Source of the DNA: Hydrangea macrophylla
Taxonomy: Eukaryota > Streptophyta > Magnoliopsida > Cornales > Hydrangeaceae
Length of the DNA stretch: 64,000 nucleotides
Assembly (NCBI GenBank): GCA_033977485.1
Contig: CM066989.1
Coordinates: 96,119,887-96,183,886, forward strand
Direction: 5' to 3'
This document shows, in pieces, positions 17,343 to 62,523 of the stretch (within the stretch, counting starts at the first letter, position 1; every line of letters begins with the position of its first letter). Under the pieces are notes generated by a model, which was given only the letters and a program-made list of their open reading frames with translations, was not told where the DNA came from and made no database searches. Position numbers and translations under genes: made by a program.

Positions 17343-17854
17343 TCTTTTCTTCTTTTCTCTCTACATTTCTCTTTCTCTCTCAATGATGGAAGACAAAACC
17401 CCCATGGAAGCTTTAACCTTAACGCTTCATTTTGAGGACCTTCAAGCCATTTTCGGAGCATTAAGAGCAAAAATGATCACCTCGACAAGGGCTACGCTTG
17501 GGTACCATTTATTTTGACATCCATGACCATTTTGGGATTTCTCTTCTCTCTCCATAGGGCTTGTTTGGGTGCTTCTTTTTCAAGGACACCAAGGTAGAAT
17601 TTATTACCTAAATATTTTGTAAAGTTCATGCCTACTACGAATTTTTTTGTGATTTTGAAAGTTAGGATTTGGAATGGGTTCAAGGTTAAATCCTCCATAG
17701 CTTAAGTGTATGTTGATGAGCTTGATTAAATGTTTAAAATATTATTAATTGGTTATTTAATTAATTGATTAAATGTTTATCAATTTGGGGTGAAAGCATA
17801 ATTATTTGACTATGTGCTTATGTGTTTAGTCTTTGGGTTGAAAATATGTGTTAT
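17027..17854 (+). mobile_element. Family B LTR, left part (split by the Tat element)
   Basis: Starts TGTCATGATT inside the RNase H region of the Tekay element. It resembles the LARD LTRs at 45090 and 52465: 'tggtatcacatttgcattta', a TG microsatellite, then a CT/GA-rich block (17310-17375). It is interrupted at 17855 by the Tat element and resumes at 39514. Open frames on the minus strand here (17036-17470, 17492-17698) are low-complexity translations of the LTR. Confidence 0.7.
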
Positions 17855-18120
17855 TGTAGACACCCCGATTTTGACCGACCATCGAATTTAGGAGAGCGTC
17901 ACCTCCACATCCGATGATGATAAGGACCGAAAGATTCGAAGTATTCCAAGCTCTTCAGAAAGTTCTCCAAACGCAATAAAATTTCACAAAAAGAAGGAAA
18001 TACCAGGTATTTAGGAGAATTCAGGGATAAAACATCATTTTTGGAAAAGATCTTCGAAAATAAGTTTCTTTAAGAAAAAGGAGGAAAGAAAAGACCTAAA
18101 AAGGGAAGTTCAACAAAAAT

Positions 18121-18458
18121 CGGCACACGGCAGTATTTTGCGGCACTCAGTGAGTGCCGAACGGCATTCGGTGAGTGCCGAACGGCAGTCACAGAATGCC
18201 GGTCCGGCATTTACTGAGTGCCGCCGACATTTTCTGACTGTCGTTTGCTTTTAAAGTCCGTATTTTGTGTTGCAATACGTACATGTATGCGGATAAAAAC
18301 AAAAAACTGATAAAGTAAGGTTGACAAAAATGCGACAATCAATAATTTGGCGCGGCACTTACTGAGAGCCGCGCGGCAGTCATGGAATGCCGCCGCGGCG
18401 TTCACGGAGTGCCGCATCGGCATCCACTGAATGCCGCAAAAGATTTTTGACTACCGCC
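18121..18458. promoter_or_regulatory. Palindrome cluster in the Tat 5' LTR
   Basis: Two groups (18121-18242 and 18350-18458) of short imperfect palindromes built from CGGCAYTC and its complement GARTGCCG, for example GGCACTCAGTGAGTGCC near 18141. At least nine pairs are present, each able to form a small hairpin or bind a dimeric protein. The cluster ends about 110 bases upstream of the TATA box. The same motif recurs at 30526-30660, 34380-34515 and in the 3' LTR (36270-36400, 36973-37075). Confidence 0.8.
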
Positions 18459-18566
18459 CTGTGCAGCAGTCTGTCTATTTTCAGGAAGTACGTATTGTAC
18501 CACCAAATGAGACATTTACACCTGTCTTTTACTCCGAATTCACTGAAAATACTTGGTAATTTTGTC

Positions 18567-18574
18567 TATAAAAG
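18567..18574 (+). promoter_or_regulatory. TATA box of the Tat LTR promoter
   Basis: TATAAAAG in an otherwise unremarkable context, downstream of the palindrome cluster; transcription would start near 18600. The copy in the 3' LTR is at 37183-37190. Confidence 0.65.
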
Positions 18575-20897
18575 AGGGAGGATCTTCTTTGGGAGAGAGA
18601 CACAAAAAAAAGAGAGGAGAATATACACAAACAATATACAAGAAATCACTACCACTACACTAACATATTTTTTAGAGAGAAGAGCTTGGAAGATCTTCAA
18701 AGGGGAAAAGCTTTGAGAATAGTTTGGAGGTGATCCTCTAACCACAAATTGTTTTTTTTCTTTTTCATTCTTTTGAACTTCTAATCTCAAAACTACTTGG
18801 TCCTTTGATTAAACTTTTTAGAAGCTTTACTAGGGAACTTCAAACTTTAATTGCCTTCTCTTTTAGTTCCTTCTTTTCTTCCTCTTTTGTTTATATTTCT
18901 CTCTTGAGATTCTTGGAAGTCTTCTATACTTCACTTGAATCTCATGAGTTGGATCCCTTGATTCCATGTGAGCTTGTGCTTTCCATGAGAGTCAAGGTTG
19001 ATCATCCTTTATATAAGAGCAAGTAAATGAATCTAAACCCCCACCATGGTTTGGGATTCTTTGACTTAAGGTTTCATGGAATCCCCTTCCATATTCCTTG
19101 AAAACCTATGAGTATTAGCTATTTTTTTTGTACTTCTCTTGAGATTCTTGAAGGTTCATGAGTATTAGCCATATCTTCATCTCCAATGACCATCAAGTGA
19201 TAGGAGAAAGTAGTTTGAGTCTAAGCCCATCTCCATGGTTTGGATTCATTATCTTGAGATTTCATGAAGTCTATTCATACTTCATTTGAAATCTACAAAT
19301 ATAAAGGTCTTTAGTCTCCAATGACCATCAAATGGTAGGAGAAAATGGTTTAGAGTAAGTCCAACTTCATGGTTTAATAGTTGGAGTTAACAAATAAAAG
19401 TTGAACTTGACAACGAAACAGTGGGTTCATAAACCGGTTTTGATCAAAGATTTTTAGTTCGAAATTAGACCGTTGAAACTGAATGAAACCAACGGGAAAG
19501 TGTCAATAACACAATGTTTTACCACTGCAATTTTTGTTTTAAGGAAATTTCATGTCTAAAGTGGTTTGGTCATGAGTTTTATAAAGTCCCTACAATCTGT
19601 CCAGAATTTCAGAACAGTGACCTCTTTTGAAATAAGTAAATTAAAACCTTAATAAAGTATTTGTGACCCAAAATAATTTTTTCTAAGTAGATTAATGTGT
19701 TAGGAAGTCACCCTAAAAAGAACAAAGCATTTCTGATCTTTTTGCTATTTTTAGAAAATCGTGCAAGAACTCTGGACAGAAGGTTATAGAATGCTGAGTG
19801 ATGTCTGGTTTTTGTCCAATTCTCGGAGATCCAAATGTTGAAACTTTGATTTCTTTTTTGGGTTAAAAATTAGACACACAGAGGCATCTTGTGTCCAAAA
19901 TTCATCAAGATCAAACCACGGGAACCATGCTTTTTAATTTTTTTAAAGTTACGATCTGCTCTCAGCAATTTCCAGAATTCTGCAATAGTTTTCATCAATC
20001 TTATGAATAATGGCTTAGATGAAATTTTCATGAGTCAAGGTTCAAACCATGTTCCAATAATGATTAGTTAAGCTTGAATTCAAAGTTTAAGTGATCTAAA
20101 TCACCGAGTATTTCATAATTTATTTTTGTTCATGTACATATTCATCCATATGACTTGACACTTGTAATTAGGATTTATTTACTTTAGATTCAATTGCATT
20201 TGATAGATTTAAGTTAGAAATTTAGAATGGTTATTCCTAACTTCATATCTTGTATATCATGTGGACTAACCTTTTGTTTTGTAGCGCTATTAAGGTATGA
20301 TTTCTAGGACTCCTCTTTAGTTTATTTTAAATTCTTGATTTTATTAATTTTTCAACCCCATGCGCGACACATTAGAATTAGGATCTTGCCTTATGTGTAT
20401 ATGTGATTAGAGACCCTTTTTAGGATTTTCTTTTGTTTGTATGCATTGCACGTTTAATATCGCTGCTGGATCCCGGGTAAGTTCTCTTGTTCCCTATTGC
20501 ATATCACATTGCTTGCTACTTGAAATATGTGGCTTATGAATGATATTTTGTCATTAGCAATTTAACACCCCTTGGACATGCTTTTGTAATATATATGTAT
20601 ATATGTATTAGTTGAGGGCATGCTTAGATTAATAAATTTGATTAAAAGGATGTTGAGTAGAGGCCTATCGCAAGATAGGATGAGAGAGGGTGTTTTAGTC
20701 CGACGGGCTCCTTCCTCTCTCATTCCATAATCCCCGGACCTAGTTAATCTCTGGTTTCTGAAAGATCAGTTTGCTTTAAAAATTGGTTCTTAATTTTCCT
20801 TTTAAAAATTAAGTGGCGACTCATTTGTTTTAAATTTGAAATTTAAAAGAATTTTAAAATAAAAGCTGTGGGTAAGAAAACTGCGATATCCACAATC

Positions 20898-20947
20898 TGG
20901 CGACTCTGCTGGGGATCGAACCCAGAATCTCTGGTTTCGCAGACCAG
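20898..20947 (+). promoter_or_regulatory. Extended primer binding site: complement of the 3' half of tRNA-Arg
   Basis: TGGCGACTCTGCTGGGGA (20898-20915) starts three bases after the LTR end and is the usual Ogre-type tRNA-Arg priming site. The match continues: read on the minus strand, 20947-20898 gives an anticodon stem CTGGT/ACCAG around loop CTGCGAA (anticodon GCG), a five-base variable region, a T-arm CTGGGTTCGATCCCCAG and an acceptor strand ending CCA. Identity with plant tRNA-Arg (which normally has ACG) stops at the 5' edge of the anticodon stem. Confidence 0.85.
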
Positions 20948-22151
20948 GATTCTGATTTTGGGTTCACTTGAGGATTAGACTTGAAAAATATCCTTTTTAT
21001 CGAATTTATTAATCTTTGTGTGCCTGTTGCATTTCACTTGCATGTCCAGCCAGTCGATTGCACGGAACTATGACCTTGGAGGCTCGGGGCAACCCGGTCG
21101 GTCAAGTCATCATGGGACTGTGTGATCACCCTTGATCTCGTACCATGATTTGGTATATTAAGCGTCCTATCGGATGTGTGTCAAGGGTCCCTTATTTGAC
21201 TAAAATCCAGCTTTTGCACAATAGTTTCTATAGAACCTTTCAATCTTAGGAAATCAACTCTTGATTAGGATTATATGCTAGGAAGTTTTGTATGCCCGGA
21301 GGGGATTACTTGAGATGATGATGATACTTGCTTGATGAAGGATGTATAATATTTTTAATCGCCTTTTAGCAATTTCTCCCCGTGTTCCATGACATTTGGA
21401 TAACATGCTGAACCCTGATTATAATATTATACTCCTTATATCATGTTTAGCTAAGCATCATTGACCTTGTATGTATCCAAATTCATGGAAAGTACGGCGA
21501 TAATCCGGTCATGTGATCCCCCTACCCAAAGAATTTCTTTTTCCAAGGTTTTCATTCACCCTTCCAAAAAAATCTTTTTTCTCCTTTTAATTAAAATTCC
21601 CAAACTAACCTTTGTTAAGGCATATTTTCACTTGATCATCTTCAAAAGAAATAAATTCGAAAATCCTTGAAATTATTTTGGGAAGAATGATTTTCGGAAT
21701 AAAAACCCAATCATTTTTTTGTTTAACACCCTCAAAAGCATTCTCAAGCATTGTTTTCAAAAGCCTTTTTACTCCAAAAGATGCTTTTCAAATGAATTTT
21801 GAAAATTTTGGAATATCCAACCTTTGAGAGGGTAGTGAGATCACAATGAGAGGAGAAATTAGCGCACTTGACATGGGTGAGGATCTTATGTGCTTATGTG
21901 CTTATCTGTTAGGATTACGATTTTCTCTTTTTTTGGCATATAGAGCAGGCACACACGCACACATGCATTGCATCCGCGTGACATACAAAGGGAAAGTTTT
22001 TTTTAATGTCTTTGTGTGATAAAAGGAAGATAAAAAAAATTTAAAAGGAAAAATTTCAAAATTTGCTGTAGGAGCGAAAATAGCATCTAGATCAAGTCAA
22101 GCCTGGTTTAGGGATCCCACGGCGAGGCTGGTAAGAAGAGAAGGCACTAAC
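20948..22151 (+). other. Untranslated leader of the Tat element
   Basis: About 1.2 kb between priming site and gag. It opens with GATTCT and GGGTTC (20948-20965), which pair with AGAATC and GAACCC inside the tRNA-like segment and extend its hairpin. Only short motif-free frames are present (21461-21670), so there is no upstream ORF1 of the kind described for Ogre. Confidence 0.6.
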
Positions 22152-23360
22152 ATGACTGAGGAAAGAAACAACGAGGAAATGGCTGGGCTAAGAACACCGG
22201 TAGAACAACAAGCGGAGCAAATGAGGCGACAGGCCGAAAACATGAACCGCATGATGGGGATGATAGAAGAGCTGAATCGCCGACCACCACCTGTAATTCC
22301 ACCTGTTATGGACCCACCTTTGGGAGGAGGGGAGGGAGATTGGTTTGATGATCAGGAGGCACAATGGACTGATGCACTACGGGCCAACAGAGACAGAGAG
22401 AAAGCTAAGAAGGAGAAGCTACTAATCGAGAAAATAGAGAAGTTGGAAAGGGTAATGCGCAAGGCTCAGGTAGTTGATACCTATCTGATGGAACTGGAGG
22501 GGTTGTATGACGGAGTACGTGAGACACTGCCTGTCGGGTTTAAGATGCCAATTTTTGACAAGTTTGATGGGATCGGGAATCCTAGTAGCCATGTAAGAAT
22601 GTGTATCGGGGCTTTCCAACTAAGTGGGCTGAGCACAACCATGATGGCGGTCCTTTTCCAACAGACTTTGACCGGAGCTGCTTTGTCCTAGTATCTTACT
22701 CTCGAACCAAGCAAAACCAGGGTGTGGGAGGAAGTGATCAAAGCGTTTTTGGCACAGTACGAGTACAATCAAGATTTAGATGTCACTGTTCGAGATCTGG
22801 AGACCACTAGGCAAGGGAGCAAAGAATCATTCGCCGAATACTTGAGCAGATGGAGGGGAAAGGCAGCTAAAATGGTACAAAGGCCGTCTGAGAAGGACCA
22901 GATCCGAATGGTGATGAAGAATCTACAGCCAGTGTATTAAGAAAAGATGAGATTCCAGTCAATCAACACCTTTGCTGAGGTCTTCGATGTCGGGACAAGG
23001 ATAGAGGATGCAATCCAAGAGGGGGTAATCAAGAAAGAGGAGCAACCAAACCGGTACAGGAGGCCAAACTATGGATCCAACGGAGGACAAGCGGGAGGTC
23101 ACTCTGGCCCCACCGATGTCAATGCACTAAATGGGCCAGAAAGGAAATTCGACATAGCACCGAGGAGAGGAGGGGATAAAGCACCAAGGAAGTTCTCAGA
23201 TTTGAGAGTGTCACTTTGAACAGCCCTCGATAGACTGTTAGCAAAGGGGCATCTCTGTCAATTGGAACCTCGACCCCTACCAAGTCCGCTTCCGCCAAAT
23301 TTTCAAGGGGACCTCTTTTGCAAATTTCATTAGCAAAAGGGTCACTCAACGGATAGGTGT
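22152..23360 (+). pseudogene. Tat gag (broken by stops)
   Basis: Gag forms the cytoplasmic particle and packages the RNA. The start is ATG at 22152, followed by a Gln/Met/Arg-rich helical segment likely to be a coiled coil, then an acidic stretch. The capsid-like core includes FDGIGNPSSHVRMCIGAF, an EPS..VWEEVIKAFLAQY helix and a SFAEYLSRWRGKAAKM segment. A zinc-finger-like FCKFH..KGHSTDRC follows near 23317-23361. It is in one frame with the protease but has stops at 22689, 22938, 23217 and 23331, each one transition from a plausible sense codon. Gag and protease would thus have been one polyprotein of about 1,020 codons. Confidence 0.8.
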
Positions 23361-25220
23361 ATGAGATTAAGGCACGAGATTCAGGACCTTATCGATAACA
23401 AGGTAATTTTGGAACCCCCCACCAAAGCTCTGAATGTTACTAGAAATCTGCTTCCGAATCACCGAGTTGTACCACCACCGCAGGGCCTTTATCTCTTGGG
23501 GATAGAAGAAGCAACCTTCGATCCATTTAGGCTAATCGCTAAGGCCGGGACACCAAGAAAGCCATACCAGCTGCCTAAGGATTCGACAATCTGTGCTTTG
23601 GAGGATCAGTCGGAGAAGAGGGAAATAGGGCAGTCAGACTGGTGGATCCAAGGGAGTGACGATCGAGACGTGAGCCAGGTGGAAGATGACTTCTGGTACG
23701 AGAGCTACAAAGAAACAGAGATAGTGGAGGATACTTTGAAAATTGATCCAGAAGTGTGGGCAAGAGAAGAAGTCAGTCATTTAACTCGGTCGGGCAGACA
23801 CTTTAAACCACATGAGCTAGAGGAGGATCATCCGGGGAGAGATCTAGACAAAGGAAAAGGGAAGATGAATGAAGAAGAGGAAGAAGACAGGGTTCTAAAG
23901 CAGATGAAGAAGACCCCGGCTAACATCACTGTTTGGGGGTTGCTGATTGCCTCCAAACGCCATAGGCAGGCAGTCCTAGACGCTTTGAACCAAGCTGACG
24001 TGTCTATCGACACCACCCCGGAGGACCTCATAGGGCTGATCGGCAAAATTCTGACTTCGGCTATTACCTTCTCATCAAATGACTTGCCTCCGGGAGGGCC
24101 CGTTCGCAACAAACCATTATATGTCACTATCGAATGCTTGGGGAACATCGTGCCTGCTTGCCTGTTTGACAATGGGTCGGCCCTCAACGTGTGTCCCTTC
24201 CGGACGGCTAAGCGAATGGGCCTGGATGAGTCAACATTTACACCATCTGAGCAAAGGGTAAGAGCCTACGACAACACCCAGAGAACGGTCATGGGGATAG
24301 TCCTTCTTCGTCTCGTTATCGGCCCTTTTGGAAAAGAAGCTGAATTCCAGGTCATCGACATCCCCGCTTCCTTCAACCTGCTGCTAGGTAGGCCTTGGTT
24401 GGACAGTTTGGGTGCTATACCGTCAACAATCCATCAGAAGGTTAAGTATATCTGGGAGAATAAAGTCTGTGATATCCTCGGGGACAGTTGGGTTTGGTCG
24501 CCCAAAGCATCATCAAGTGCACCGATTCTAGAATTACAGCTGCAAGAAGAAGAAGCAAAAATAAGAGGGTTCGAGTTCATCAGCATGCTGGGAGAGGAAA
24601 AGCCAAGAGAGTTTCTACCGCTCCATTTTGATCAGTATGCCAGTCCAGTGGTCGCAGGGATCACGAAGAGAATGGGTTTCTTTCCCGGATTAGGGTTGGG
24701 GAAGAACCTTCAGGGCCTGCCTGAGTTTCCAAGAATCCCTACTCAGACTCACACTCACGGCCTGGGCTACCAACCGACAAAAAAGGAACTGAGGGCAAAG
24801 AAGAAAGCCATCTATGCGCCACTAGACCCTTACCTAAAGATGCTCAATGGATATTTTATGAAGGAAGGAGAAGATTTCCCCTTCTGTGGCTTCCCAGAGC
24901 CATGGATGGACCAGAAAGACAAATGTCTAAAGCCAGGATTTGAGATCTTTTTCTCCCATGAATTTTCCAAGTACGAAGACCCGTTTTTGCAAACGCCTAA
25001 AAGGTCTGTTACCGTCGACGATTGGATTGGTGAACTGGACGGACCGGTCATGCAGAACCTGTTGAGCGAAGAAGGGGTAAAAGCCGAAGGAAAAGAGAAA
25101 GAAGACAAGGGTCTGGAAGTCGAGGCTGAGGAGGGGAATGTTGAGGATGTACTGGAAGAAGAGCCGAAGGAAGAAGAGGGAAAACTGGAAGAAGAGCCGA
25201 AAAAGATGAGGAAGATCTGA
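23361..25220 (+). CDS. Tat protease region with G-patch
   Basis: An open stretch of 619 codons continuing gag's frame; the displayed start is arbitrary. An acidic linker leads to the aspartic protease with active site CLFDNGSALNVCP (about residues 267-279) and a flap-like FNLLLGRPWLDSLGAIPS. Near residues 428-450 a G-patch motif, ITKRMGFFPGLGLGKNLQG, could bind nucleic acid or recruit a helicase; G-patches next to retroviral-type proteases are known in several retroelements. The end is a long Glu/Lys-rich tail. It stops at 25220 and RT resumes at 25256 in another frame, by mutation or possibly by frameshifting. Confidence 0.8.
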   Translation: MRLRHEIQDLIDNKVILEPPTKALNVTRNLLPNHRVVPPPQGLYLLGIEEATFDPFRLIAKAGTPRKPYQLPKDSTICALEDQSEKREIGQSDWWIQGSDDRDVSQVEDDFWYESYKETEIVEDTLKIDPEVWAREEVSHLTRSGRHFKPHELEEDHPGRDLDKGKGKMNEEEEEDRVLKQMKKTPANITVWGLLIASKRHRQAVLDALNQADVSIDTTPEDLIGLIGKILTSAITFSSNDLPPGGPVRNKPLYVTIECLGNIVPACLFDNGSALNVCPFRTAKRMGLDESTFTPSEQRVRAYDNTQRTVMGIVLLRLVIGPFGKEAEFQVIDIPASFNLLLGRPWLDSLGAIPSTIHQKVKYIWENKVCDILGDSWVWSPKASSSAPILELQLQEEEAKIRGFEFISMLGEEKPREFLPLHFDQYASPVVAGITKRMGFFPGLGLGKNLQGLPEFPRIPTQTHTHGLGYQPTKKELRAKKKAIYAPLDPYLKMLNGYFMKEGEDFPFCGFPEPWMDQKDKCLKPGFEIFFSHEFSKYEDPFLQTPKRSVTVDDWIGELDGPVMQNLLSEEGVKAEGKEKEDKGLEVEAEEGNVEDVLEEEPKEEEGKLEEEPKKMRKI

Positions 25221-25255
25221 GGGAGACCAACAAAGGGAGGGCTGAGAAAGAAGAA

Positions 25256-27083
25256 GTGGAAGAGATTACCAAGGCAGGAGATTTGGAAGAATACTTCATC
25301 ACCGATTTGGGAGGAGAAAACAAGAGAGAGTGGGTCTTTGAGTCTAGTGATAAGTATCCCCCTCACCCAGAGTCTGTAATGGCCCAAATGAGGCGTCTTA
25401 CTATTGCTATGTCTGTTGTAATCACTCCTAACAAAATCAATGAAAGTATGACTGATTCCGCCTACTCTAATGCGCTTAATGAATGTGATGAATGTGAAAT
25501 ACCTGATGAATTGCAAAAATTAGTTGAAAAAGAAAATGAATCTGCATGTAAAATCATAGAGAACACCCTAACAATTAATCTGGGAAATGAAGACAACCCT
25601 CAAAATATTTTTATTGGCTCAACACTTAGCAATGAAGAAAGCAAAGAACTAATCAATCTATTGAATGAATTCAAAGATGTTTTTGCATGGTCTTATAATG
25701 ATATGCCAGGTATTGATCCAAAAATAGTCCAGCACCACATCCCTCTCTTTCCTAATTCAAAACCCATAAAACAAAAATTGAGGCGAATCAGGCCAGAATG
25801 GGCACTTAAAGTAAAAGAGGAGGTTGAAAAGCAATTAAAGGCTGGATTCCTGATGGTCACCGAGTATCCTGAGTGGATCGCCAACATTGTGCCTATCCCA
25901 AAGAAGGATGGTCGTGTTAGGGTTTGCGTTGATTTTTGAGATTTAAACAGGGCGAGCCCTAAAGACGATTTCCCGCTACCCCACATCGACGGGTTAGTTG
26001 ATAACACTGCGGGACACGAGCTTCTATCTTTCATGGATGGATTCTCTGGGTATAATCAAATCCTCATGGCACCCGAGGATAGGGAGAAAACCACGTTCAT
26101 CACTCTGTGGGGGACATATTGCTATAGGGTCATGCCATTCGGACTCAAGAATGCAGGTGCGACCTATCAGAGGGCTGCCACCACTTTACTACACGACATG
26201 ATCCACAAAGAGGTGGAGGTATATGTGGATGATATGATTGTGAAATCCAAAGAGAGGGGAGGGCACCTAGAGGCTTTAAGAAAGTTCTTTGAGAGATTGA
26301 GGGAATTCAAAATGAGGCTAAACCCGCAGAAATGCACGTTCGGAGTCACTACTGGAAAATTATTGGGATTTCTCATTACTCAGAGGGGAATAGAGGTGGA
26401 CCCCACCAAAATAAAAGCCATAACCAAAATGAACCCACCAAAAGGTGAGAAAGAACTGAGAGGATTCTTGGGGAGAATACAGTTCATCAGCCGCTTCATT
26501 TCCAAACTTACCTTAACCTGCGACCCACTTTTCAAACTGTTCAGAAAGGGAGAGAAATTTGAATGGGACGCCCCTTGCCAACAAGCCTTTGACAAAATCA
26601 AAACCTACCTCCAAAACCACCTGTCTTGTCACCACCTTCACCTGGGAGACCCATGCTACTTTATCTCTCCGTATCCGAAGATTCGATGGGGTGTATGTTG
26701 GCCCAGGAAGGAGAAGAGGAGCACGTGGAGAAGGCCATTTACTACTTGAGCAAAAGAATGGTCGGATATGAGTTAAAGTATTCGCCCTTGGAAAAGGCCT
26801 GTTGGGCCTTGGTTTGGTGTACCCGTCGCCTTCGCCACTACATGCTAGCCTTCCCTGTAATCCTGATATCCCGAATGGACCCATTAAAATACCTATTCGA
26901 AAAGCCCGTCTTGACCAGTGGATTTCCCGCTGGACCATAATGCTAGCTGAGTTCGACATCAAGTATGTCACTGCCAAGTCTGTGAAAGGAAGGGTTGTCG
27001 CTGAGTTTTTAGCCGACCTCGCTATAGAATCCGAGGACGAGGGAGAATTCAAGTTCCCGGATGAAAGAATAATGGAGGTATAG
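25256..27083 (+). pseudogene. Tat reverse transcriptase and first RNase H (broken)
   Basis: The amino part has a linker and PEWIANIVPIPKKDGRVRVCVDF, cut by a TGA at 25937. The RT core follows in the same frame: LSFMDGFSGYNQI, MPFGLKNAGATYQRA and active site YVDDMIVKS near 26221-26247. The RNase H region follows with frame changes near 26610 and 26920 and a conserved KRMVGYELKYSPLEKACWAL helix. It ends with a connection segment (RWTIMLAEFDIKYV) and a stop at 27081. At least one stop and two frameshifts lie inside, so this copy cannot make the enzyme. Confidence 0.85.
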
Positions 27084-28820
27084 GAGGACCTGTGAAAAAT
27101 GTACTTCGATAGAGCAGCCAACCAACTAGGTTACGGAGTCGGAATCATTCTCATAGTACCCGATGGGACCCCTACCCCATTAGCCGTCAAACTCAAGTAT
27201 AACTCAACCAACAACACCGCGGAGTACGAAGCGTGCATAATTGGGATGGAAGCAGCCTTGGCTTTAAAATTTGAACAGATTGATGTCTTCGGAGATTCCA
27301 ATTTGATCATATCCCAAGTCTGAGGAGATTGGAGGGTAAAGCATGAGAAATTGAGACCTTACCACGATTACCTGGAAAGTCTGAAAGCGCGGTTCAAGAA
27401 GATTTCTTTTTACCACCTTCCTCGTGAAGAAAACCAACTAGCCGACTCCTTGGCTACCTTAGCATCGATGATCCAAATCCCTTCCAAAACCGCCATGATC
27501 CCGCTATCCATAGAAGTGAGGAATCAACCGTCATTTGAAATGATCGCGGTCATAGAAAGAGAAGATGAAGTGCCTTGGTATGAAGATGTGTGGAAGTTCA
27601 TCAAAAAAGGAGAATACCCCGAAGGAGCCTCCAAAAAAAACAGAAAGGCGATTCGACAATTCGCCGCTCAATTTGTGATTTATGCAGATAAGCTATGGAA
27701 GAAATCCTACACCGGGTATAATCTGGAGTGCCTATATGGGAAAGAAGCTAAGAGAATGATGGAGGAAATACATGAGGGAGTGTATGGGCCCCACATGAAT
27801 GGGCACATGCTGGCAAAGAAGATCATCCGACAGGGGTACTATTGGACGACCTTGGACAAAGACTGTTGCGAATATGTTAGAAGGTGTCACAAGTGTCAGA
27901 TTCATGCAAATCTGATGCATACCCCGCCGTCACAGCTCTATAGCATGACCACCCCTTGGCCATTTTCCGTATTGGGGATTGATATCATTGGTGAGATAGT
28001 TCCAAAGGCTTCCAATGGGCACCGATACATAATCGTGGCAATCGATTATTTTACAAAGTGGGTAGAGGCAGCCTCGTATGCAACTTTGAAAGCCAAAGAC
28101 GTGGTGAGTTTCATCGAGAAAAACTTAATCTGCAGGTATGGGGTCCCGAATGAGTTTATCTCTGATCATGGCAGTCATTTCCAGGGAGAAGTTATCCCGC
28201 TCCTAGAAAAATATAAGATCACTCACCATCAATCATCCCCGTATAGGCCCCAGACGAATGGAGAAGTAGAGGCAGCGAATAAGAATGTTAAAGCAATCTT
28301 GGGGAAAACGACGGATACATATAAGGATTGGCATGAGAAGCTGCCGTTTACTTTATGGGGATACCAAACTTCTGTAAGGACTTCTACAAGAGCTACACCT
28401 TATTCACTGGTTTACGGTATGGAGGCCGTTCTCCCAGTCGAGGTAGAAATACCATCCCTTAGGGTTTTGGCAGAGTGTGAGATCACCAAATCAGAATGGA
28501 TACGAGGAAGGTATGAGGAGTTGATGTTACTCGATGAGAAGAGGTTGGCCGCAATAAACCATACTCGGGGGTACCAGAAGAGGATAGATCGTGCTTTCAA
28601 CAAAAAGGTCCGCCCAAGGAGGCTTGCTGAGGGTGACCTAGTCCTCAAAGAACTGAAAGTGCCTGTTTATGACCCCAGAGGAAAATTCAAACCCAACTGG
28701 GTCGGGCCATACATCATTAAGACTCTCCTTTCTGGAGGAACGGCCTATCTCATGGACCTAGATGGAGTTGAATTTAAACAGCCAATCAACCTTGATTGCC
28801 TCAAGGAATATTTTGCTTGA
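27084..28820 (+). pseudogene. Tat archaeal-type RNase H and integrase
   Basis: A second RNase H, diagnostic of the Tat branch, begins MYFDRAANQLGYGVGI near 27099 with NTAEYEACIIGMEAAL (Glu) and DVFGDSN (Asp), and ends HLPREENQLADSLATLA. The usual glycine after the first Asp is Arg here. Stops are at 27093 and 27321. From 27324 the frame is open for 499 codons: integrase zinc finger (HEGVYGPH.NGH, CHKCQIH), catalytic core (DIIGEI, SDHGSHF, NGEVEAANKNV giving D, D and E) and carboxy domain (GDLVLKE, GPYIIKTLLSGGTAYLMDLDG). It ends with TGA at 28820. The integrase half appears intact. Confidence 0.85.
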
Positions 28821-29536
28821 AACCTTTCTTTTCAAAGCCTCCTACCTTGATGAACTACGGTCAACCTGATTCCCGCTAGGGGATACGTAGGCAACCTACT
28901 TGGTTCGGTCATTTAAAAAAAAACCTGTGCTAAACTAGGGGCAAACTGGCGTTGCCCAGAACCACTTTGAAGCCCTAAAACCAGGGGCAAACTTCGTTTG
29001 CTAGCCGAAGAACCCAGATACAAGACCCTCCTTTGGATCACCTGGCTATCAAAATAAGTACTATAAAGAAACAAATGAGAATTCATTGTATATAAGGAGT
29101 AAAGCTTTAAGCAAAAAGCAAAGTAAAGAGCCAAGAAAAGACATTGAAAGGAGATTTCTTCATAAAAGATTAATCGAAGGAGTGAGCACTTTGATTAAAA
29201 CATGTTAGAACTTTCTTAAAGATGACAACACTTCTTGAAGAGAAAAAATAAGGAAAATCACATTCGAAAGCGTAAAAAGAGTAGGCAGGGTCTGTCAGAA
29301 AGTTTTGTAAAATGGCAAGCTTTTCCCTGTTTTCGTCTACTTTATTATGCATGTGTCTGTCAAGCTCATCTTGCAACCAAGGCCTGGATCTCAAGAAGAT
29401 ACTGGGTAGTAGGCACAGTCGGAGCAGGAATCCTCAGGCACGGAGCAGCCATCCTGCTGTGCCAAGCCTCAATGAAAGTAGAAGGGCGCAAAGTGGACCC
29501 TCTGGTGAAATCAGCAGTCACAGATTTAGTAGTATC
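28821..29536. other. Spacer between integrase and antisense genes
   Basis: No gene. It holds a 'ggggatacgtaggcaacct' word just after the integrase stop, which I know as a recurring post-integrase segment of plant Tat-type elements, and two copies of an 'aggggcaaac' word (28935-29000). The 3' ends of plus-strand pol and of the minus-strand gene at 29537 converge here. Confidence 0.5.
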
Positions 29537-30442
29537 CTATAAAAATCTAAACTGGCGGACCACCCGATCAGGAATATAGAAAGTAGTAGCACGCAAGCCC
29601 GGCAGCCAGATGCTAGGTTGCCCAGGAAGATGTACAGCAGTAGAGCGATAAATCCACTGCGGACAGACCCAACAGATATCACTGGAAGAGAGGCCCTGGA
29701 GCCAACCGAGCCATGCATCGGCATAATGAAATAAGTTGTGGATCTCCATACGGTCGTAAGGAAGTGACCCGCGAAGATGGGAAGGATGTATAAAGAGGTC
29801 CAGACGCTCCATGAGCAAAATCTGCAGAACAAAAGGTGCCCCAGCGGATAATATGGCCCCGATAACATGAGCATGATCCAGTCCTATCAGGGTCTCACCG
29901 AGAACCAGCATGACTGCACTCTTCATCTCTCTCAAACCGCAGGCAATGGGTATGAGAATGTCGGAGGATGACTGAAAGAGAAAGTAAGAAAGCATAGGAA
30001 TCGATAGAGCGCTACGCTGTATAACTTGATACCCGCTGTCGTAAGGATCCCCAATGGGAGCATAAATCGAGGAGAGGTGCTCAAAGTCGACCTGTCTGTC
30101 GTGAATGAAAGAGCCTGCGGCACCGCGGGATATATGGAGAAGAGCCGCCAAGTCTTGAACATACCCGGCTTGCACCGGAGGAACAGTCAGATCCGCGGAA
30201 GGGTCAGTATGAAGGATAGCACTGAATTCTTCAAACAAATGACAAATCTCTTGATGACTGAAACGGAAGACGTGGAGCGAAGGATCCCAACATTGGATAG
30301 CGGCTTGAAGCAAACTTTTGTTTAGAATCATTCGTCGGAAGGAGAAGAGATCGTTTAGCCTGAAACACTCGAAGTTGAGCCTATCAATACCGGAGAGGGT
30401 ATCCATCCATGGGAAAAGGATTTGAGAGCTAACGGGGGCCAT
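29537..30442 (-). CDS. Antisense gene 1: DUF7745-like protein
   Basis: A single open frame on the minus strand, ending at 29537. The frame is open to 30625, but the ATG at 30442 (start MAPVSSQILFPW) is preferred: the longer start would translate the palindrome cluster, and a TATA-like CTATTTATA lies about 60 bases upstream of 30442. The product is 301 residues. A conserved block, AAIQCWDPSLHVFRFSHQEI followed by CHLFEEFSAIL, resembles the start of DUF7745 proteins that accompany plant retrotransposons. The rest is hydrophobic-helical with no catalytic motif I recognise. Its function is unknown. Unlike gag and pol it has no stop or frameshift, hinting at recent constraint or luck. Confidence 0.6.
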   Translation of the reverse strand: MAPVSSQILFPWMDTLSGIDRLNFECFRLNDLFSFRRMILNKSLLQAAIQCWDPSLHVFRFSHQEICHLFEEFSAILHTDPSADLTVPPVQAGYVQDLAALLHISRGAAGSFIHDRQVDFEHLSSIYAPIGDPYDSGYQVIQRSALSIPMLSYFLFQSSSDILIPIACGLREMKSAVMLVLGETLIGLDHAHVIGAILSAGAPFVLQILLMERLDLFIHPSHLRGSLPYDRMEIHNLFHYADAWLGWLQGLSSSDICWVCPQWIYRSTAVHLPGQPSIWLPGLRATTFYIPDRVVRQFRFL

Positions 30443-30494
30443 TTGAGATAGGGGAGAATGAAAGAAGGTAGTGTTTTGCGGAGTTTTGAAGAAA

Positions 30495-30660
30495 AGAGGG
30501 TATAAATAGAGGTAGATCTGCCTGGAGTCAGGGCGGCATTCGGTAAAGTAGAACGGCACTTGACGAAGTGCCGCGCGGCAGTCCGTGAGTGCCGTCGTGG
30601 CATTCGCTGACTGCCGCTGCGGCACTCACCGAGTGCCGCTGAGACCTAACTGAGTGCCGT
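30495..30660 (-). promoter_or_regulatory. Promoter of antisense gene 1: palindrome cluster plus TATA
   Basis: Six or more palindromes of the LTR type (for example GGCACTCACCGAGTGCC near 30622) lie at 30526-30660, followed on the minus strand by CTATTTATA (about 30501-30509). The spacing and order repeat the LTR promoter at 18121-18574. Promoter use is inferred. Confidence 0.6.
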
Positions 30661-31121
30661 TCTGGGTTTTTCATTGGCCAGGGTCTGTTTGTAACACTTT
30701 CAGCCCACCTGCAAACAGAAAACTAGATAAAGAACAATAAAACATGCGCATCATGCAACACGTGCAACAAAGACCAATACATTCATTCATTCATTTCATT
30801 TACTTTCATTTTGCAATAAGAAAAAGTTATCAAAGCATTCAAAATTAAAATAAAGATGGGACCAAGCCATGGTCCCACATACGGCGGGCAAGAGAAAATG
30901 AAAAAGAGTTTTCAGCGTGATAAAAGGACCAAGCTATGGTCACGCATACGGTGAATGAGCATAATGAAAAGCAGAAAACATAAAAGACATCCAAGTGCCT
31001 ATCCTACCGGGTATCATAAAAGCCGCCATAAAAAAAAAAGTGTATGTATATATACAATCATATGAATAAAGTATATATCCTCCCAGAACACTCAAAAAGT
31101 AAAGAATAAGAAAAAGCGAGG
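30661..31121. other. Spacer between the antisense genes
   Basis: About 460 bases with no gene. It contains a short ATTC repeat run (30780-30800) and two copies of a 'gaccaagc.atggtc' palindromic word (about 30859 and 30928). It includes the 3' flank of the PMD gene. Confidence 0.5.
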
Positions 31122-34100
31122 TCAGCCTCGACCCCGGCCTCGAGCCTGACGGGTCACACGCCTGAGGGGCTCCTCCTCTGACTCTGTCCTGCTGCCTCCG
31201 CCGCCGCCTCCACCGCTCCTGCCTCTACCTCCGCTGCTGCCTCCACCGCTACCACCGCCCTTGCCTCTAACTCCGCTGCTGCCTCCACCGCTACCGCCAC
31301 CTCGCCCCACGCCTCATCCAGCACCGCCATCACCAGGAGTGTCGCTGAGGGGAATGCCAAACTGCTAGAGCCGCTGCTGAAGCTGCCCCACCTGCTGGGA
31401 CAGGACTCTGATCTCCTCCGCCAGAAATAAGAGAGGATGAATCCAGAAAGTGTTGAAAAGACAAATGAAATACTGAGAATAAAAGGATAAAGATCATACC
31501 TGAGCCCTCAACTGAACCGCGACAGTCGCCCGAGCTCCCTCAGCCTAAAAAATAAGAACCAAGAATAAAGATTAGTAAAAGGAGAGGCAGTCAAAGTCAA
31601 AGTGAAAGGCGGGGATAAGTTTCTTACCATCCACTCTTACCCGAGAACCCACTGCCACACGCTGTGGGCATATGTCAAGCCCTCCTCCGCGTAAGCACGC
31701 GGGATGACGTCATAATGGAGAGGAATAGTAGGGGCACCCTGTGAGAGCCGGGGGATCGTCGTCAAGAAGGGCTCGCCGAACGAGACAGTCGACATGGTCC
31801 AATCCCACTCAGGTAAGGCAGGAGGACGAGCCGCAGCAGGAACATGCTACAAACAAAAATAAAACGTAAATAAAGGATGAAAGAAAACTCATAAAAAAAA
31901 TAAAGGAATCATTTACTCACCCGAGTCACTTCCATCAGAGGGAAGTTCAGAATCAGCTTAGCGGCGCGGAACCCTGGGTATCCGATGGGGGGGTCCACAA
32001 AGTCATGGATACCCAAGCCCATTAGAGCAGCCGTAAGCTCGTTACCCTGGAGTGTGTCTGTGGCTCTCATAGAGTCAGGAGGAGGGTACGGCACAAAGAA
32101 TCCGGGGGCTGCCAGTGACTGCCTAGTCACCCTCTCTCCCAAGTACCACGCCTGGCCCTCTGGCACATCAAGGAGTCACCTCGTCGGGTCATACCCAGCC
32201 GATTCTCGGATCTCCCGCGCGAGCATAAGGAAGCACCCTAAGCCATGGCTGCCAATGAACATGTTGTTCCCTCAGGTTCGTCAGGAAGTTCCTGAACAAA
32301 ATAAAATCGTGGGCCCCGGTCTTCCGCCCGACTCTATCCTTTGCCCATTTCAGCCCCTGGGGCATGATGAGGGCGTCTGCATCGCGTGTCTCAGGGGACA
32401 TCATGCGGAGATACTCATGGGACCAAATCTGTAATAAAAAAAAGAGAGAAAAGAGGTTAGTCTCGCAATATAAATAAGTTTCTGAAAGTGTAATAAGCAG
32501 TGAAGTATAGAAAAGGGTATACCTCCCACGCTCTCCAATAGCCACTGGTGGAAGCCGGCCTGTCCCGGGAAATGTCACCCATATGCCTGTACAAGATGGC
32601 TAACCCTGCACCAGCCCAGTCATACTCATCGACCCGGTCCAAGTGCTCCAGGGACGCTACCAGGGAAACATCGACCCGATTACCCTTGGTGCTCAACAAA
32701 GAGCACCCCAGCATGTACATGAGAAAACCCCGGGTCATCTGCTCATCGGTAAAACCCTGCTGACCCCTAAACGTATCCATGAACCATCGGGCTGTGACCA
32801 AAGACTCCTCCGGGACCACTCCCAACAACGGCTCCACTTGGTCCCACTCTGTATCCGCCAGGTGCCGCAAACGCTCTCCGCCAAAAGTAATCCCCGTAAT
32901 CATCGAGAAGTCCAGGGGAGTCATCGTCATCTCCCCGAAGTCGAAGTGGAACGTACTAGTAGTGTCCCACCACCTCTCTGCCAGAGCGTGAATCTGTCGT
33001 AAGTCGTTGGAGCTCTTCGTCAAGAGTTTGACAAAGTCTCCAAACCCGGCCGCGTTCACCAAAGCTCTCACCGGCTCGCTCAGCTGTGTGTACCACTCAT
33101 ACCCGTGAGCGAGGCTGCCATGCCCCTTTAACACCTTGGACTACAGCTGCAAGAAAGAATCACAAGTTTTGATATTAGTAATTGGATAAAAGAAAAAATA
33201 TACAAAAAAAATAAAACAGATGGTAGTAAGGAAACAAGGAAAAGCGACATAAAAATGAATAAAAAGAGAAAGAAATGGAAAATCTGGAAATACTCGCAGA
33301 AATTTCACAAGCATGGCACTCGTTTGCATTCAGTTCAGCAGATGTTCACAAGATAATAAGAGGAAATAAAAGAAAGCACTCGATGTTCTAGAGAGATTTC
33401 AAGAAAAAGAAAAAGAGAGAGAGGAGTTTGTTCACATTTTTGAAATATATATATATATAAACTTGTGAAGGTTCAAAACAAATTCAGGTTCAAAGGAAGC
33501 ATAGTTTCGAAAGAAGTACAGGTTCACAAGTATTCAGAATCAAGTTAGAATAATAAAAGGGTGTTTGGAACGCTCAAGGAAATTCATAAGTATAATAGTC
33601 ATGGGGAATGTTTTGGAGTTTCAATTAAAACGCGTCGCGTTCGTAAATCTTAAGAAAAAATGGAAAGGAAAAATTCACAAGCATAAGGCTCTTTATTTAC
33701 AAGAAGTGTTTGAAATTTTGATTAACACAAACGGCTTTCAAAAGTCCTTGAAAAAAGTCGAAAGAAAAAAAAATAAGGGATAGGTGAAACACTCAGAAAA
33801 TTTAGGCATAGCATTCATTTTTATGAGAAGTTTTTGAAATTCATAAGAAATAAAGATAAAAATACGAAATTTCGTTAAAAGGGCATGGAATAAAGCATTC
33901 AAGACGCTCGAGAGCGCCACAAGCATAGCATTCGCGTTTGAAACAGGGCATCTAAAAGTTGTGTCGATTGTACGTTGCATTCATACAGAGAAAGAAATAC
34001 AAGAAATAAATAAAAAGAGAGAAGGTGTTTACCTCGCACTTGAACGCGCGGGTAGATAAATGCTCATCGGGGTCTACGAGCAGAAGTATAGGGTCGGGAT

Positions 34101-34152
34101 AAGGAGTGGCCCGGTACTTGGCCTTCTTCCGGCTGCCGGAGCCGCTCACCAT
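31122..34152 (-). CDS. Antisense gene 2: multi-exon plant mobile domain (PMD) gene
   Basis: On the minus strand I can assemble exons joined by GT-AG introns: 34152-34033 (ATG, 40 codons), 33140-32523 (206 codons), 32428-31921, 31846-31641, 31544-31500 and a last one reaching about 31122. Donors such as GAG|GTAAAC, GAG|GTATAC and CGG|GTGAGT and acceptors TTACAG and TTTGTAG are good. Exon 2 carries the PMD core: ALAERWWDTTSTFHFDFGEM, TPLDFSMITGITFGGE, HMGDISRDRP and GYWRAWE; exon 3 adds IWSHEYLRMMSP and QAWYLGERVTRQ. The tail is Gly/Ser/Arg-rich. PMD proteins act in plant nuclei in gene silencing, and PMDs occur in transposons. A frame change near 32220 and a TGA near 32181 in exon 3 suggest this copy is damaged. 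Confidence 0.75.
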
Positions 34153-34369
34153 GATCTGTCAAGGAAAAGAGAGAATTCGCGCGTTAGATTCGTGGAAATT
34201 TCAGAAAAATAAGGAAATAAAAGAGATTAATCAAGTTTTGATCGAGCAGAACTAACCTGTGAGTACCAGAGATCGATACTAAAGAAAATAGAGGATGAGG
34301 GAAAATTTCTCCAGAGAGGATTCGGGTGAAAGAGGAATGAGAGAATGAAATGAAAATGAAAATGAACGC

Positions 34370-34515
34370 TCGGTATAAGCTGCCGCGGGCAAATCGCGGC
34401 ACTCGATATTTGTGCGCGGCAGTCGATGAACTGCCGTGCGGCACTCGTTGAGTGCCACAACGGCACTCCGTGACTGCCGCACGGCATTCACGAACTGCCG
34501 TGGAAAATCGCGTGT
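34370..34515 (-). promoter_or_regulatory. Promoter region of the PMD gene: palindrome cluster
   Basis: Seven or so half-sites of the same CGGCAYTC/GARTGCCG family (for example GGCACTCGTTGAGTGCC near 34440) at 34380-34515. On the minus strand a weak TATA-like TTATACC follows (about 34368-34375), 220 bases upstream of the ATG at 34152. The motif identity is seen; promoter role is inferred. Confidence 0.55.
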
Positions 34516-34639
34516 GCCGTGGTTAAGGCGGTTCAAATCCCCTTCATTTTTCCCCCAAAATTCAAATTAGGTCCCGAAAATTGAACTTAAGCCCCCAAAA
34601 TTTGCCCTCATTGCACTTCTGGCCCCCGGGGTTTGTTCT

Positions 34640-34905
34640 TAGGTTCAAATTGACTACAAATTTCAAAAAGTTGAAGTAAATTTGAACCTGTGGGCTCCCA
34701 ATTTTGAAATAAATTTTGGCCCGTGGGCTCCCAATTTTGAAAATTGAAATAAATTTGAGCCTGTGGGCCCCAAATTTCAAAAAGTTGAAATAAATTCGAG
34801 CCTGTGGGCTCCAAATTTTGAAAATTAAGATAAATTCAAACCCGTGGGCTCCGAAGTTTTGAATTGATTTGAACTTGAGTCTGTGGACTCCAAATTCACC
34901 TAAAT
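34640..34905. repeat. Short tandem repeat with CYTGTGGGCTCC core
   Basis: About six imperfect units of 40-60 bases with a constant core (CCTGTGGGCTCC, CCCGTGGGCTCC and variants) separated by 'aaattttgaaaattgaaataaatt'-like spacers of varying length. No coding capacity; the minus-strand frames at 34562-34814 are translations of the repeat. Confidence 0.75.
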
Positions 34906-34922
34906 ATGATTCCCCTCATTCT

Positions 34923-35945: not shown

Positions 35946-36153
35946 ATCAAATCAAAAATGTCTTCTTAGCCCCTGCGATAAATTTTTGCATCAGTCAAGA
36001 ATACGGCAATCTTCCTTGACCAACGCAACATGTAACGTGCGTCATACGTAGGAAAGACATGATAAGCATAATGCTTACATAACCAGGTCTATTCATGGAT
36101 ACCATTACATAGCATGTGCATCACGATAGGATAGGTGCATCCATCCGTATGAC

Positions 36154-39100: not shown

Positions 39101-39513
39101 TTCTCTTGTTCCCTATTGCATATCACATTGCTTGCTACTTGAAATATGTGGCTTATGAATGATATTTTGTCATCAGCAATTTTACACCCCTTGGACATGC
39201 TTTTGTAATGTATATGTATATATGTATTAGTTGAGGGCATGCTTAGATTAATAAATTTGATTAAAAGGATGTTGAGTAGAAGCCTATCGCAAGATAGGAT
39301 GAGAGAGGGTGTTTTAGTCCGACGGGCTCCTTCCTCTCTCATTCCATAATCCCCAGACCTAGTTAATCTCTGGGTTCTGAAAGATCAGTTTGCTTTAAAA
39401 ATTGTTTCTTAATTTTCCTTTTAAAAATTAAGTGGCGACTCATTTGTTTTAAATTTGAAATTTAAAAGAATTTTAAAATAAAAGCTGTGGGTAAGAAAAC
39501 TGCGATATCCACA
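36154..39513 (+). mobile_element. 3' LTR of the Tat element, lacking its first 146 bases
   Basis: Matches 18001-20894 with few substitutions and ends GATATCCACA at 39513, followed by the target duplication. The LTR start TGTAGACACCCCG and any polypurine tract are missing: non-LTR sequence joins directly at 36154. It contains the hAT MITE 36520-36972, which the 5' LTR lacks. The TATA box is at 37183-37190. Confidence 0.9.
36520..36972. mobile_element. hAT-type MITE, 453 bp, GC-rich
   Basis: Terminal inverted repeats TAGAGGTGTCAAACGGGC and TAGTGGTGTCAAACGGGC (one mismatch) with an exact 8-bp duplication CTTACTGA at 36512-36519 and 36973-36980. The empty site CTTACTGA is single at 18358-18365 in the 5' LTR. 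The interior is almost entirely CCCGG/GGCCC iterations, with no transposase. TIR and 8-bp duplication fit hAT. Frames at 36619-36980 on both strands are repeat translations. Confidence 0.92.
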
Positions 39514-52450: not shown

Positions 52451-52464
52451 TAAGGGGGGTAGAT
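52449..52464 (+). promoter_or_regulatory. Polypurine tract of the LARD-like element
   Basis: TTTTAAGGGGGGTAGA directly before the 3' LTR, the typical Tekay/Del-type plus-strand primer. Confidence 0.75.
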
Positions 52465-62518: not shown

Positions 62519-62523
62519 AAAAT

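Follow-up and report, generated by a model that had tools for sequence, protein, structure and literature searches.

Ten-half-site arrays at the LTR and both antisense genes of an Ogre/Tat-type retrotransposon, a putative shared operator

The sequence-specific anti-silencing system VANC/VANDAL of Arabidopsis, as described in excerpts of PMC5735166, belongs to Mutator-like DNA transposons, the motifs of which are short, have one orientation, are massed in the non-coding regions of one element family and rare elsewhere, and vary between families. In the CACTA DNA transposon En/Spm, numerous short motifs in direct and inverted orientation are targets of the element protein TNPA and also serve excision, and TNPA up- and down-regulates its own activity; the Tgmt motif of soybean, TTGGCAG..., is unlike the motif of this study (excerpts of PMC2613891). 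A gene for a plant mobile domain (PMD) beside gag-pol is a lineage marker found in 57% of Ogre elements, and neither the available part of that source (PMC6317226) nor the literature listings inspected showed a promoter array common to the LTR and this gene. The antisense gene (aORF) of Grande possesses its own promoter and encodes a nuclear protein with a proposed regulatory role; the aORFs of Grande and Retand encode TRP28 (PF04195) or GENE23, and the passages available of PMC7264820 and PMC11963269 report no cis-element common with the LTR. The PMD proteins MAIN and MAIL1 act jointly, and genes depending on them are marked by the “DOWN” promoter motif, which is CATGCAGTTT in MORC1 and does not resemble CGGCANTC, the half-site described below (excerpts of PMC7156037, PMC9899485). 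Parts of PMC7264820, PMC11963269, PMC5418596, and PMC9899485 describe as unknown what antisense genes do in plant LTR retrotransposons and what the function or mode of action of plant mobile domains is. An operator shared by an LTR and antisense genes would provide a concrete short DNA target for both. The U3 region of HTLV-1 contains Tax-responsive 21-bp repeats, where the host factor CREB binds. The same virus possesses the antisense regulator HBZ (excerpt of PMC11963269). Repeats of about 21 bp in U3 and an antisense regulator, here a putative one, are what HTLV-1 has in common with the element analyzed. Homology between the HTLV-1 system and the arrays is not known to us.

The window is the whole stretch of DNA analyzed, 64,000 nucleotides from Hydrangea macrophylla (contig CM066989.1, positions 96,119,887 to 96,183,886). 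It contains an LTR retrotransposon (Table 1) with PF00078 (reverse transcriptase) and PF00665 (integrase) above the cut-off of the Pfam scan, as in the Ty3/gypsy OTA Tat/Ogre group, and with the Ogre marker, a PMD gene matching PF10536 (E = 1.6e-26); the likeness to Ogre/Tat elements is this marker by gag-pol. With its LTRs, target-site duplication and pol, the element is not a Mutator-like DNA transposon, and it has TG...CA ends versus the terminal inverted repeats of the CACTA element En/Spm. Accessory genes in antisense occur as in Grande and Retand, but they encode proteins with PMD and DUF7745 matches in the Pfam scan, which would also set them apart from VANC. In the three antisense ORF pieces scanned, DUF7745 and PMD were matched, a DUF1985 match stayed below the threshold, and PF04195 was not found. 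A match to RVT_3 (PF13456) ahead of the integrase domains is compatible with the additional RNase H (aRH) of this lineage, located between RH and INT.

Table 1. Positions of the retrotransposon, its genes, promoter sites, and arrays in the window
Feature	Position	Strand	Remarks
Whole LTR retrotransposon, Ogre/Tat-type	17855-39513		Target-site duplication GTTAT
Target-site copy GTTAT	17850-17854		Just before 5' LTR
5' LTR	17855..20894	+	TG...CA ends, 3.04 kb
Array LTRa	18121..18243		123 bp, ten half-sites; template 67/70
Array LTRb	18333..18456		124 bp, ten half-sites; template 64/70
TATAAAA	18567..18573	+	Presumed core promoter, sense transcript
PBS-like TGGCGACTCTGCTGGGGA	begins 20898
gag-pro-RT-integrase frames	22023..28820	+	Broken by stops
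AS1, DUF7745-like	29537..30442	-	ATG 30442; probably PMD superfamily
TATTTATA, TATA-like site of AS1	30501..30508	-	Position kept in 4/5 aligned sequences, window included
Array AS1	30534..30659		126 bp, ten half-sites; 91 bp ahead of ATG
PMD-domain exons, second antisense gene	32189..33140	-	PF10536, E = 1.6e-26 and 6.3e-09
Probable first coding exon, PMD gene	34033..34152	-	ATG 34152; inferred by reading the sequence
CTTATACC, weak TATA-like site of PMD gene	34372..34379	-
Array PMD	34397..34519		123 bp, ten half-sites; template 66/70
3' LTR	36154..39513	+	GTTAT then adjoins
3'-LTR copy of LTRa	36274..36396		Template 66/70
3'-LTR copy of LTRb	36946..37071		Cut by nested insert; template 56/70

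Half-site CGGCANTC forms four non-redundant arrays, two in U3 and one upstream of each antisense gene, and each is dyad-symmetric, with the orientation ++-+-+-+-- and ten half-sites, a number picked after seeing the data. Arrays, layout, conservation, and promoter association were computed directly from the sequence. The 8-bp half-sites follow each other at about one per helical turn over 123 to 126 bp, at offsets of 0, 20, 31-32, 41-42, 52-53, 62-64, 73-75, 84-86, 95-97, and 115-118, with 3-bp centres and 2- to 3-bp linkers; in this definition the off-register one-mismatch sites at 18128 and 18464 were excluded and the separated one-mismatch site at 18333 was included. An earlier note had described clusters of palindromes that share a unit but differ in order and spacers. 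The spacers do differ (identity 100/256 among the four arrays versus 376/420 for the cores), which agrees with the statement that the clusters are not simple copies of each other, but the order is the same in all four. That the clusters are confined to a few zones was borne out: CGGCAYTC has 24 exact matches in the window versus 1.44 expected, a number attained by 0 of 100 shuffles, and all 24 are inside the zones named beforehand, as are 33 of the 34 exact matches of CGGCANTC in the window, with a lone outlier at 36004. Random spread through the window is thus refuted. A template of the arrays scored 64 to 67 of 70 for the four and at best 34 outside the array zones. When each array was omitted from the template in turn, LTRa reached 57, LTRb 64, and AS1 61, the score of PMD was at most 56 because it was absent from the best eight places, and the best score outside was 34 in every scan. 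The massing of short motifs in non-coding regions of the element, seen in the window and at 50 listed places of the 20,612 palindromes in the genome, resembles that in VANDAL; VANDAL motifs have one orientation, whereas a ten-half-site dyad is located here at promoters of an LTR retrotransposon.

The reversed control of the palindrome search gave 0 occurrences. The 50 listed places, all at the start of one contig, are in stretches with similarity to the LTR, AS1, or PMD of the window element; all 50, which are distinct, have a 3-bp centre although 0 to 4 bp were permitted, and the rigid layout was not encountered among them outside the element group. In 31 genome stretches plus the window, 51 arrays of 120 to 129 bp scored at least 56, and 36 of them were less than 85% identical to each other. 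With distances left unconstrained, the step between exact half-sites from + to − was 11 bp 74 times, with no instance of 10 or 12, and that from − to + was 10 in 29, 11 in 31, and 8 in 2 cases. Exact half-sites numbered 327 and those of the reversed motif 8; the majority of the stretches counted had been picked because they contained the palindrome. This selection does not concern 40 AS1 genes chosen by their protein (84 to 91% identical to that of the window): a full array precedes 36 of them, at 87 to 93 bp from the ATG in 35 (mostly 91 bp) and at 110 bp in one, and of the other four, two possess a contracted array and two are interrupted by insertions. The remaining family 1 genes for AS1 and PMD came from stretches fetched for the palindrome, and the array in question was not the basis of selection in three only (L037 PMD, L047 AS1, and L050 PMD). 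Among viral contigs, 31 stretches with single palindromes contained no ten-site array (best template score 44), and neither the pattern of the palindrome plus the next half-site nor relatives of pol were found. The same pattern matched once in prokaryote genomes, at 45/70 and without an array. Of 894 literature matches to the motif letters, the 20 that were listed appear unrelated judging by title.

These numbers bear on the possibility that the clusters are products of chance, or recent copies of a segment, without function. In a distant relative, 62 of 63 bases are identical between the array of the LTR and that of PMD, which means that array copying does occur. In family 1 the spacers diverged and the cores did not, and recent duplication of a single segment, which the earlier note had named as a refuting condition, was rejected there. 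With the shuffles and the reversed control in addition, the reading without function is extremely improbable. Spacers of the window arrays are nevertheless more alike than shuffled ones (39% versus 25%), and same slots more than other slots (centres 0.42 versus 0.35, linkers 0.31 versus 0.24), which leaves old common descent of the arrays possible.

Conservation between subfamilies separates the two components of the arrays. In five or six hand-picked orthologous arrays per class, the identity was 0.85 to 0.90 for cores and 0.54 to 0.57 for spacers; dS between AS1 of the window and of L041 was 1.2. By this comparison the half-site cores are kept well beyond the spacers, although in 27 close AS1 promoters with equal intervals the two hardly differ (0.893 versus 0.834). 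An array of about 124 bp is close to nucleosome size and rich in CpG (observed/expected 1.36 versus 0.70 in the rest of the element), and it might work as a chromatin or nucleic-acid structure for nucleosome placement, as an insulator, as hairpins, or as a source of small RNAs, without a dedicated binder. The richness in CpG is not peculiar to the arrays, since the whole U3 (1.25) and tandem repeats near the 3' LTR (1.40) exhibit it too. The sequence-specific core with looser spacers between subfamilies and the inner step of exactly 11 bp argue against such a structure, and core deviations fell in a single arm 192 times and were mirrored 8 times, which favors protein half-sites over hairpins. 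A reading as hairpin or RNA was rejected on these deviations and on weak arm covariation, although position-6 arms matched slightly more often than when shuffled (56 of 144 cases versus 46.7, P = 0.04). The structural explanation as a whole is quite improbable. Binding by a protein, its identity, and the sign of its effect are what we infer. The arrays are very probably a shared protein-binding operator. Each of them may form a single cis-regulatory platform for a dimeric, sequence-specific protein, with four to six adjacent dimers seated on one face of the DNA. The platform in front of the sense LTR promoter would be the same as at both antisense promoters, and one factor would thus set all three together. 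The dimeric factor on sense and antisense promoters suggested in the earlier note appears well supported by a phased dyad array kept across subfamilies.

Candidates for the binder are encoded by the element. The profiles of AS1 and PMD matched in hhalign (E = 5.6e-6, probability 85.6%), a match not found with an AS1 profile of three sequences, and both antisense proteins probably belong to one PMD superfamily. Domains of AS1 homologues also point to PMD kinship. The first search with the AS1 protein gave no homologues and an alignment-based search gave 30 matches. In the PMD gene, a 5'-UTR intron likely lies upstream of the probable first coding exon. Values of dN/dS, computed directly, were 0.07 to 0.12 for AS1 and 0.07 to 0.24 for PMD, with 0.07 to 0.11 between the window and four relatives, and by this measure both proteins are under purifying selection. 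Structure alignments contained 37 of 38 PMD matches (P0035 omitted) and 29 of 30 AS1 matches (P0070 omitted). The AS1 model was poor (pLDDT 57), and the PMD model had no fold match in PDB or BFVD at an E value of at most 0.001, so a DNA-binding fold is not supported by the model.

A host transcription factor may occupy the arrays instead, and the element would exploit it at all three promoters. Other LTRs make use of host factors. One element that responds to heat stress is ONSEN. A retrotransposon that harnesses the heat-stress response of plants has been published (excerpts of PMC3907296), and MAIN and MAIL1 are, in the available part of PMC9899485, not known to contact chromatin directly. 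The distant relative mentioned above, with 38% (AS1) and 51% (PMD) identity to the window proteins, uses the motif CGGCASTG at both its LTR and its PMD promoter, and the related core CGGCANT would suit a host factor as well. The joint change of the motif at two promoters of one relative speaks against it, as do the confinement of the palindromes listed, 50 out of 20,612, to the element group and a rigid layout unmatched elsewhere in this sample. A host factor is rather unlikely. Since the platform was seen in no other elements at the places examined and one distant family has a changed motif at two promoters at once, a factor dedicated to the element is most likely, and the best candidates are its antisense proteins of the PMD superfamily, acting singly or as a pair. 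Encoding of the predicted binder by the element has an even chance, and an element-dedicated operator for several dimers, with PMD-family proteins as candidate binders, is slightly favored as the best explanation of the whole. In the distant element the motif is changed at two promoters, much as motifs vary between VANDAL families, and the proteins are diverged; motif and protein may have changed together. Its AS1 gene has no CGGCA cluster or array, which shows that the rule of three promoters does not hold everywhere.

The position of the arrays relative to the promoters concerns the sign of the effect. The earlier note had placed the clusters of the LTR and AS1 roughly 20 to 110 bases upstream of a TATA box, which holds for AS1 (26 bp from TATTTATA) and nearly for LTRb (111 bp from its end at 18456 to TATAAAA at 18567) but not for LTRa (324 bp from 18243), and the weak TATA-like site that it mentioned for the PMD gene, CTTATACC, was found about 18 bp from the array. 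At a distance of 18 to 26 bp from the TATA-like sites of their own genes, bound antisense proteins could obstruct initiation, an autoregulatory placement by which they would curb their own and LTR transcription to control copy number. The LTR arrays at 111 and 324 bp are, however, in an enhancer-like position, and arrays are retained in an 11.3-kb derivative that lacks matches to INT, AS1, and PMD. This point is weak because the derivative is old, with LTRs at 93%, and exists in a second copy that resembles a segmental duplicate, for which reason it was dropped as proof of activation. Repression by an element-encoded factor is improbable. PMD-family proteins would rather activate transcription or counteract silencing in a positive feedback, and a net activating or anti-silencing effect has an even or slightly better chance. 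A tentative extension to Ogre-type retrotransposons is a self-contained positive or anti-silencing circuit, in which the antisense PMD-superfamily pair would bind the ten-half-site operator at the LTR and at its own promoters, and motif and proteins would co-diverge between families. If true, a retrotransposon would contain a type of circuit, anti-silencing or feedback, that is known from DNA transposons, and MAIN and MAIL1 of the host would be domesticated relatives of a DNA-directed regulator of transposable elements.

In the window copy itself, the two LTRs differ at 10 of 247 positions inside and 50 of 2,647 outside the arrays, and the arrays thus exhibit no sign of protection after insertion. 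The 3' LTR starts without the first 149 bp or so present in the 5' LTR, and a nested insert of about 450 bp at 36518-36970 splits its copy of LTRb.

The half-site CGGCAYTC occurred 24 times in the window against 1.44 expected. All four non-redundant arrays, LTRa and LTRb in U3 and one each upstream of the antisense genes AS1 and PMD, shared a common layout of a lone forward half-site, four palindromes, and a lone reverse half-site within a total of 123 to 126 bp, and this arrangement of ten half-sites is identical when read on either strand. A leave-one-out scan with the array template recovered LTRa, LTRb, and AS1 with scores of 57, 64, and 61 of 70, respectively, and PMD with at most 56; outside the array zones, the best score in the whole 64 kb was 34. 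Steps in the window were 11 bp inside a palindrome (12 bp at one place each in AS1 and PMD) and 10 to 11 bp between palindromes. Over 36 non-redundant arrays, the best period was 10.7 bp, the steps being constrained by the template, and exact half-sites located with no template gave steps in agreement with the template-based ones.

Features of the host element and its surroundings in the window
Feature	Position	Strand	Remarks
5' LTR	17855-20894	+	GTTAT on both sides of the element
3' LTR	36154-39513	+	GTTAT flank
gag-pol		+	Interrupted
AS1	29537-30442	-	DUF7745-like, E 1.0e-4, short of Pfam's cut-off
PMD gene		-	Spliced, exon structure read from sequence; PF10536, E 1.6e-26
GC-rich insert	36518-36970		~450 bp with GGCCCG repeats, interrupts the 3'-LTR copy of array b
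Tandem repeats	34916-35940		~60 and ~120 bp, between PMD array and 3' LTR
Long direct repeats	55448-56763 / 62522-63857		91-95%, without array motif
Long direct repeats	45082-47413 / 52456-55254		91-95%, without array motif

The arrays belong to a single LTR retrotransposon, the LTRs of which were 96 to 98% identical in their shared parts. The 5' LTR starts with ~149 bp (17855 to 18003) that were absent from the 3' LTR, with both target-site copies intact. The GC-rich insert possesses inverted ends, TAGAGGTGTCAAACGGGCC, and ACTTACTGA is repeated on both sides of it. Several relatives contained repeats similar to the tandem repeats of the window, and the two sets of long direct repeats are probably LTR pairs of other elements. 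AS1 and PMD are located between pol and the 3' LTR in the orientation opposite to that of gag-pol; 57% of Ogre elements are reported to contain PMD eORFs (PMC6317226). A search with an alignment of three sequences retrieved AS1 homologs, for which the precomputed domains were PF24924, PF10536, both, or none. The AS1 profile matched that of PMD (E 5.6e-6, probability 85.6%); with a shallower profile of AS1, PMD was not matched. Because of these domains and the profile match, the products of both antisense genes are probably PMD-superfamily proteins, as judged from sequence.

In the genome of 2.22 Gb on 19 contigs, the palindrome occurred 20,612 times and the reversed pattern, used as a control, 0 times. 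The 50 distinct places listed were all within the first 4.5 Mb of one contig, C1, and are not a random draw. All 50 had a 3-bp center, although the pattern permitted 0 to 4 bp. They were viewed as 31 stretches, two of them widened, and assigned stretch by stretch, partly by manual reading. Similarity to the LTR, AS1, or PMD of the window's element was present in 31 of 31 stretches, in L063 and L064 visible only once widened, and in L061 extending past the array only via identity to the LTR in L039. Several stretches were near-identical to one another, resembling segmental duplicates. No account of these arrays was found in the literature listings and text passages covered; they may have been described before, for example in Repbase or in the 2011 eORF survey.

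Promoters were also selected by protein instead of motif. A genome search with the AS1 protein scored 131 matches of 11,266 candidates, which were, the window's own apart, 84 to 91% identical to AS1 and thus close relatives only. From 40 of these genes, about every third match, 280 bp upstream were scanned. A full array was present in 36 promoters with scores of 59 to 69, compared to at most 38 in letter-shuffled promoters, and its end was 87 to 93 bp from the ATG in 35 cases, 26 of them with exactly 91 bp, and 110 bp away in the remaining case. Two promoters, L075 and L081, had a contracted, degenerate array with most inner palindromes gone, and another two, L082 and L090, were interrupted by apparent ends of other LTRs, as read from sequence. 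Both breaks were at the same base, ~85 to 95 bp before the ATG and immediately preceding the CCGCCCTGACT of the last half-site, which may reflect array-targeted integration by related elements. Three further arrays (L037 PMD, score 64; L047 AS1, 60; L050 PMD, 48) were not responsible for the selection of their stretches, which had been retrieved because of an LTR or a different palindrome.

Both antisense genes were strongly constrained, with a dS of 1.2 and a dN/dS of 0.08 for AS1 of the window versus L041 as well as for PMD versus L042. At comparable divergence (dS ~1.2), the half-site positions, or core, were identical at 67/70 positions in the AS1 and in the PMD array, compared to 27/45 and 24/43 spacer positions, respectively; in the more distant L047, these values were 57/70 versus 11/41 for AS1 and 57/70 versus 13/40 for PMD. 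Choice of half-sites by motif likeness inflates the core identity, but their number and register were set by the template. Among 27 AS1 promoters with equal intervals, core agreement was 0.893 versus 0.834 in the spacers, a small gap among close copies. No protection of the arrays after insertion was visible between the two LTRs: 10/247 array positions differed versus 50/2647 outside (Fisher P 0.033), gaps occupied 10 and 7 columns, respectively, and 9 of the 10 array differences were transitions. The CpG observed/expected ratio was 1.36 in the arrays versus 0.70 elsewhere in the element, but it was also high beyond the arrays, with 1.25 in the whole U3 and 1.40 in the region of the tandem repeats (34520 to 36000).

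A distant relative, family 2, was inserted in L043 and followed through the neighboring L070 to L072, the pieces being joined as one element by reading. Compared to the window's element, identities were 88% for RT, 69 to 76% for INT, 42% for PRO, 49% for GAG, 51% for PMD, and 38% for AS1; its LTR copies showed no difference over the 2125 bp compared. Its U3 contained six half-sites, mostly CGGCASTG, in 11-bp steps ~140 bp upstream of TATATAAA, and this array recurred in front of the PMD gene, at a distance of ~210 bp from its ATG and of 20 bp from a TATA-like site. The LTR array (L043:1167-1229) and the PMD-promoter array (L071:2318-2380) agreed in 62 of 63 bases with dissimilar flanks, which points to a recent copying of the array alone. 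In this one element, the motif thus differed jointly at two promoters, with copying. Upstream of the family-2 AS1, which is located closely downstream of the PMD gene, an array of this type was not found; the three-promoter plan is thus not universal, on the evidence of this one element. Four 21-nt copies of the CAAAACGGGGC type with 10-base spacing (L071:2257-2307) were situated immediately upstream of the family-2 PMD array.

Because of the fixed phase and the dyad symmetry, several dimers of one sequence-specific protein may bind the array side by side, and since the array is present at sense and antisense promoters, one factor would meet the sense promoter and both antisense promoters. A factor dedicated to the element is favored by the joint motif change and by the restriction of the arrays, among the places examined, to this group of elements. 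The two antisense PMD proteins, both strongly constrained, are the natural candidates for the putative binder. The host PMD proteins MAIN and MAIL1, which are not known to bind DNA directly, work jointly, and many genes depending on them possess the DOWN promoter motif (CATGCAGTTT in MORC1), as described in PMC9899485 and PMC7156037. According to PMC5418596, only Gypsy elements encode PMD-A clades, and a contribution of captured PMDs to MULE anti-silencing was proposed there as speculation. Activation or anti-silencing would be favored over repression, and this only because of the analogy with VANC and TnpA and the maintenance of the arrays. The PMD exon as modeled by AlphaFold (pLDDT 73.5) had no match in the PDB at E ≤ 0.001, which neither supports nor excludes a DNA-binding fold. 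The PMD model m5504073c6bb4 matched the model of one viral protein without a name, A0A890CAY5 (E 1.5e-3, TMq 0.46).
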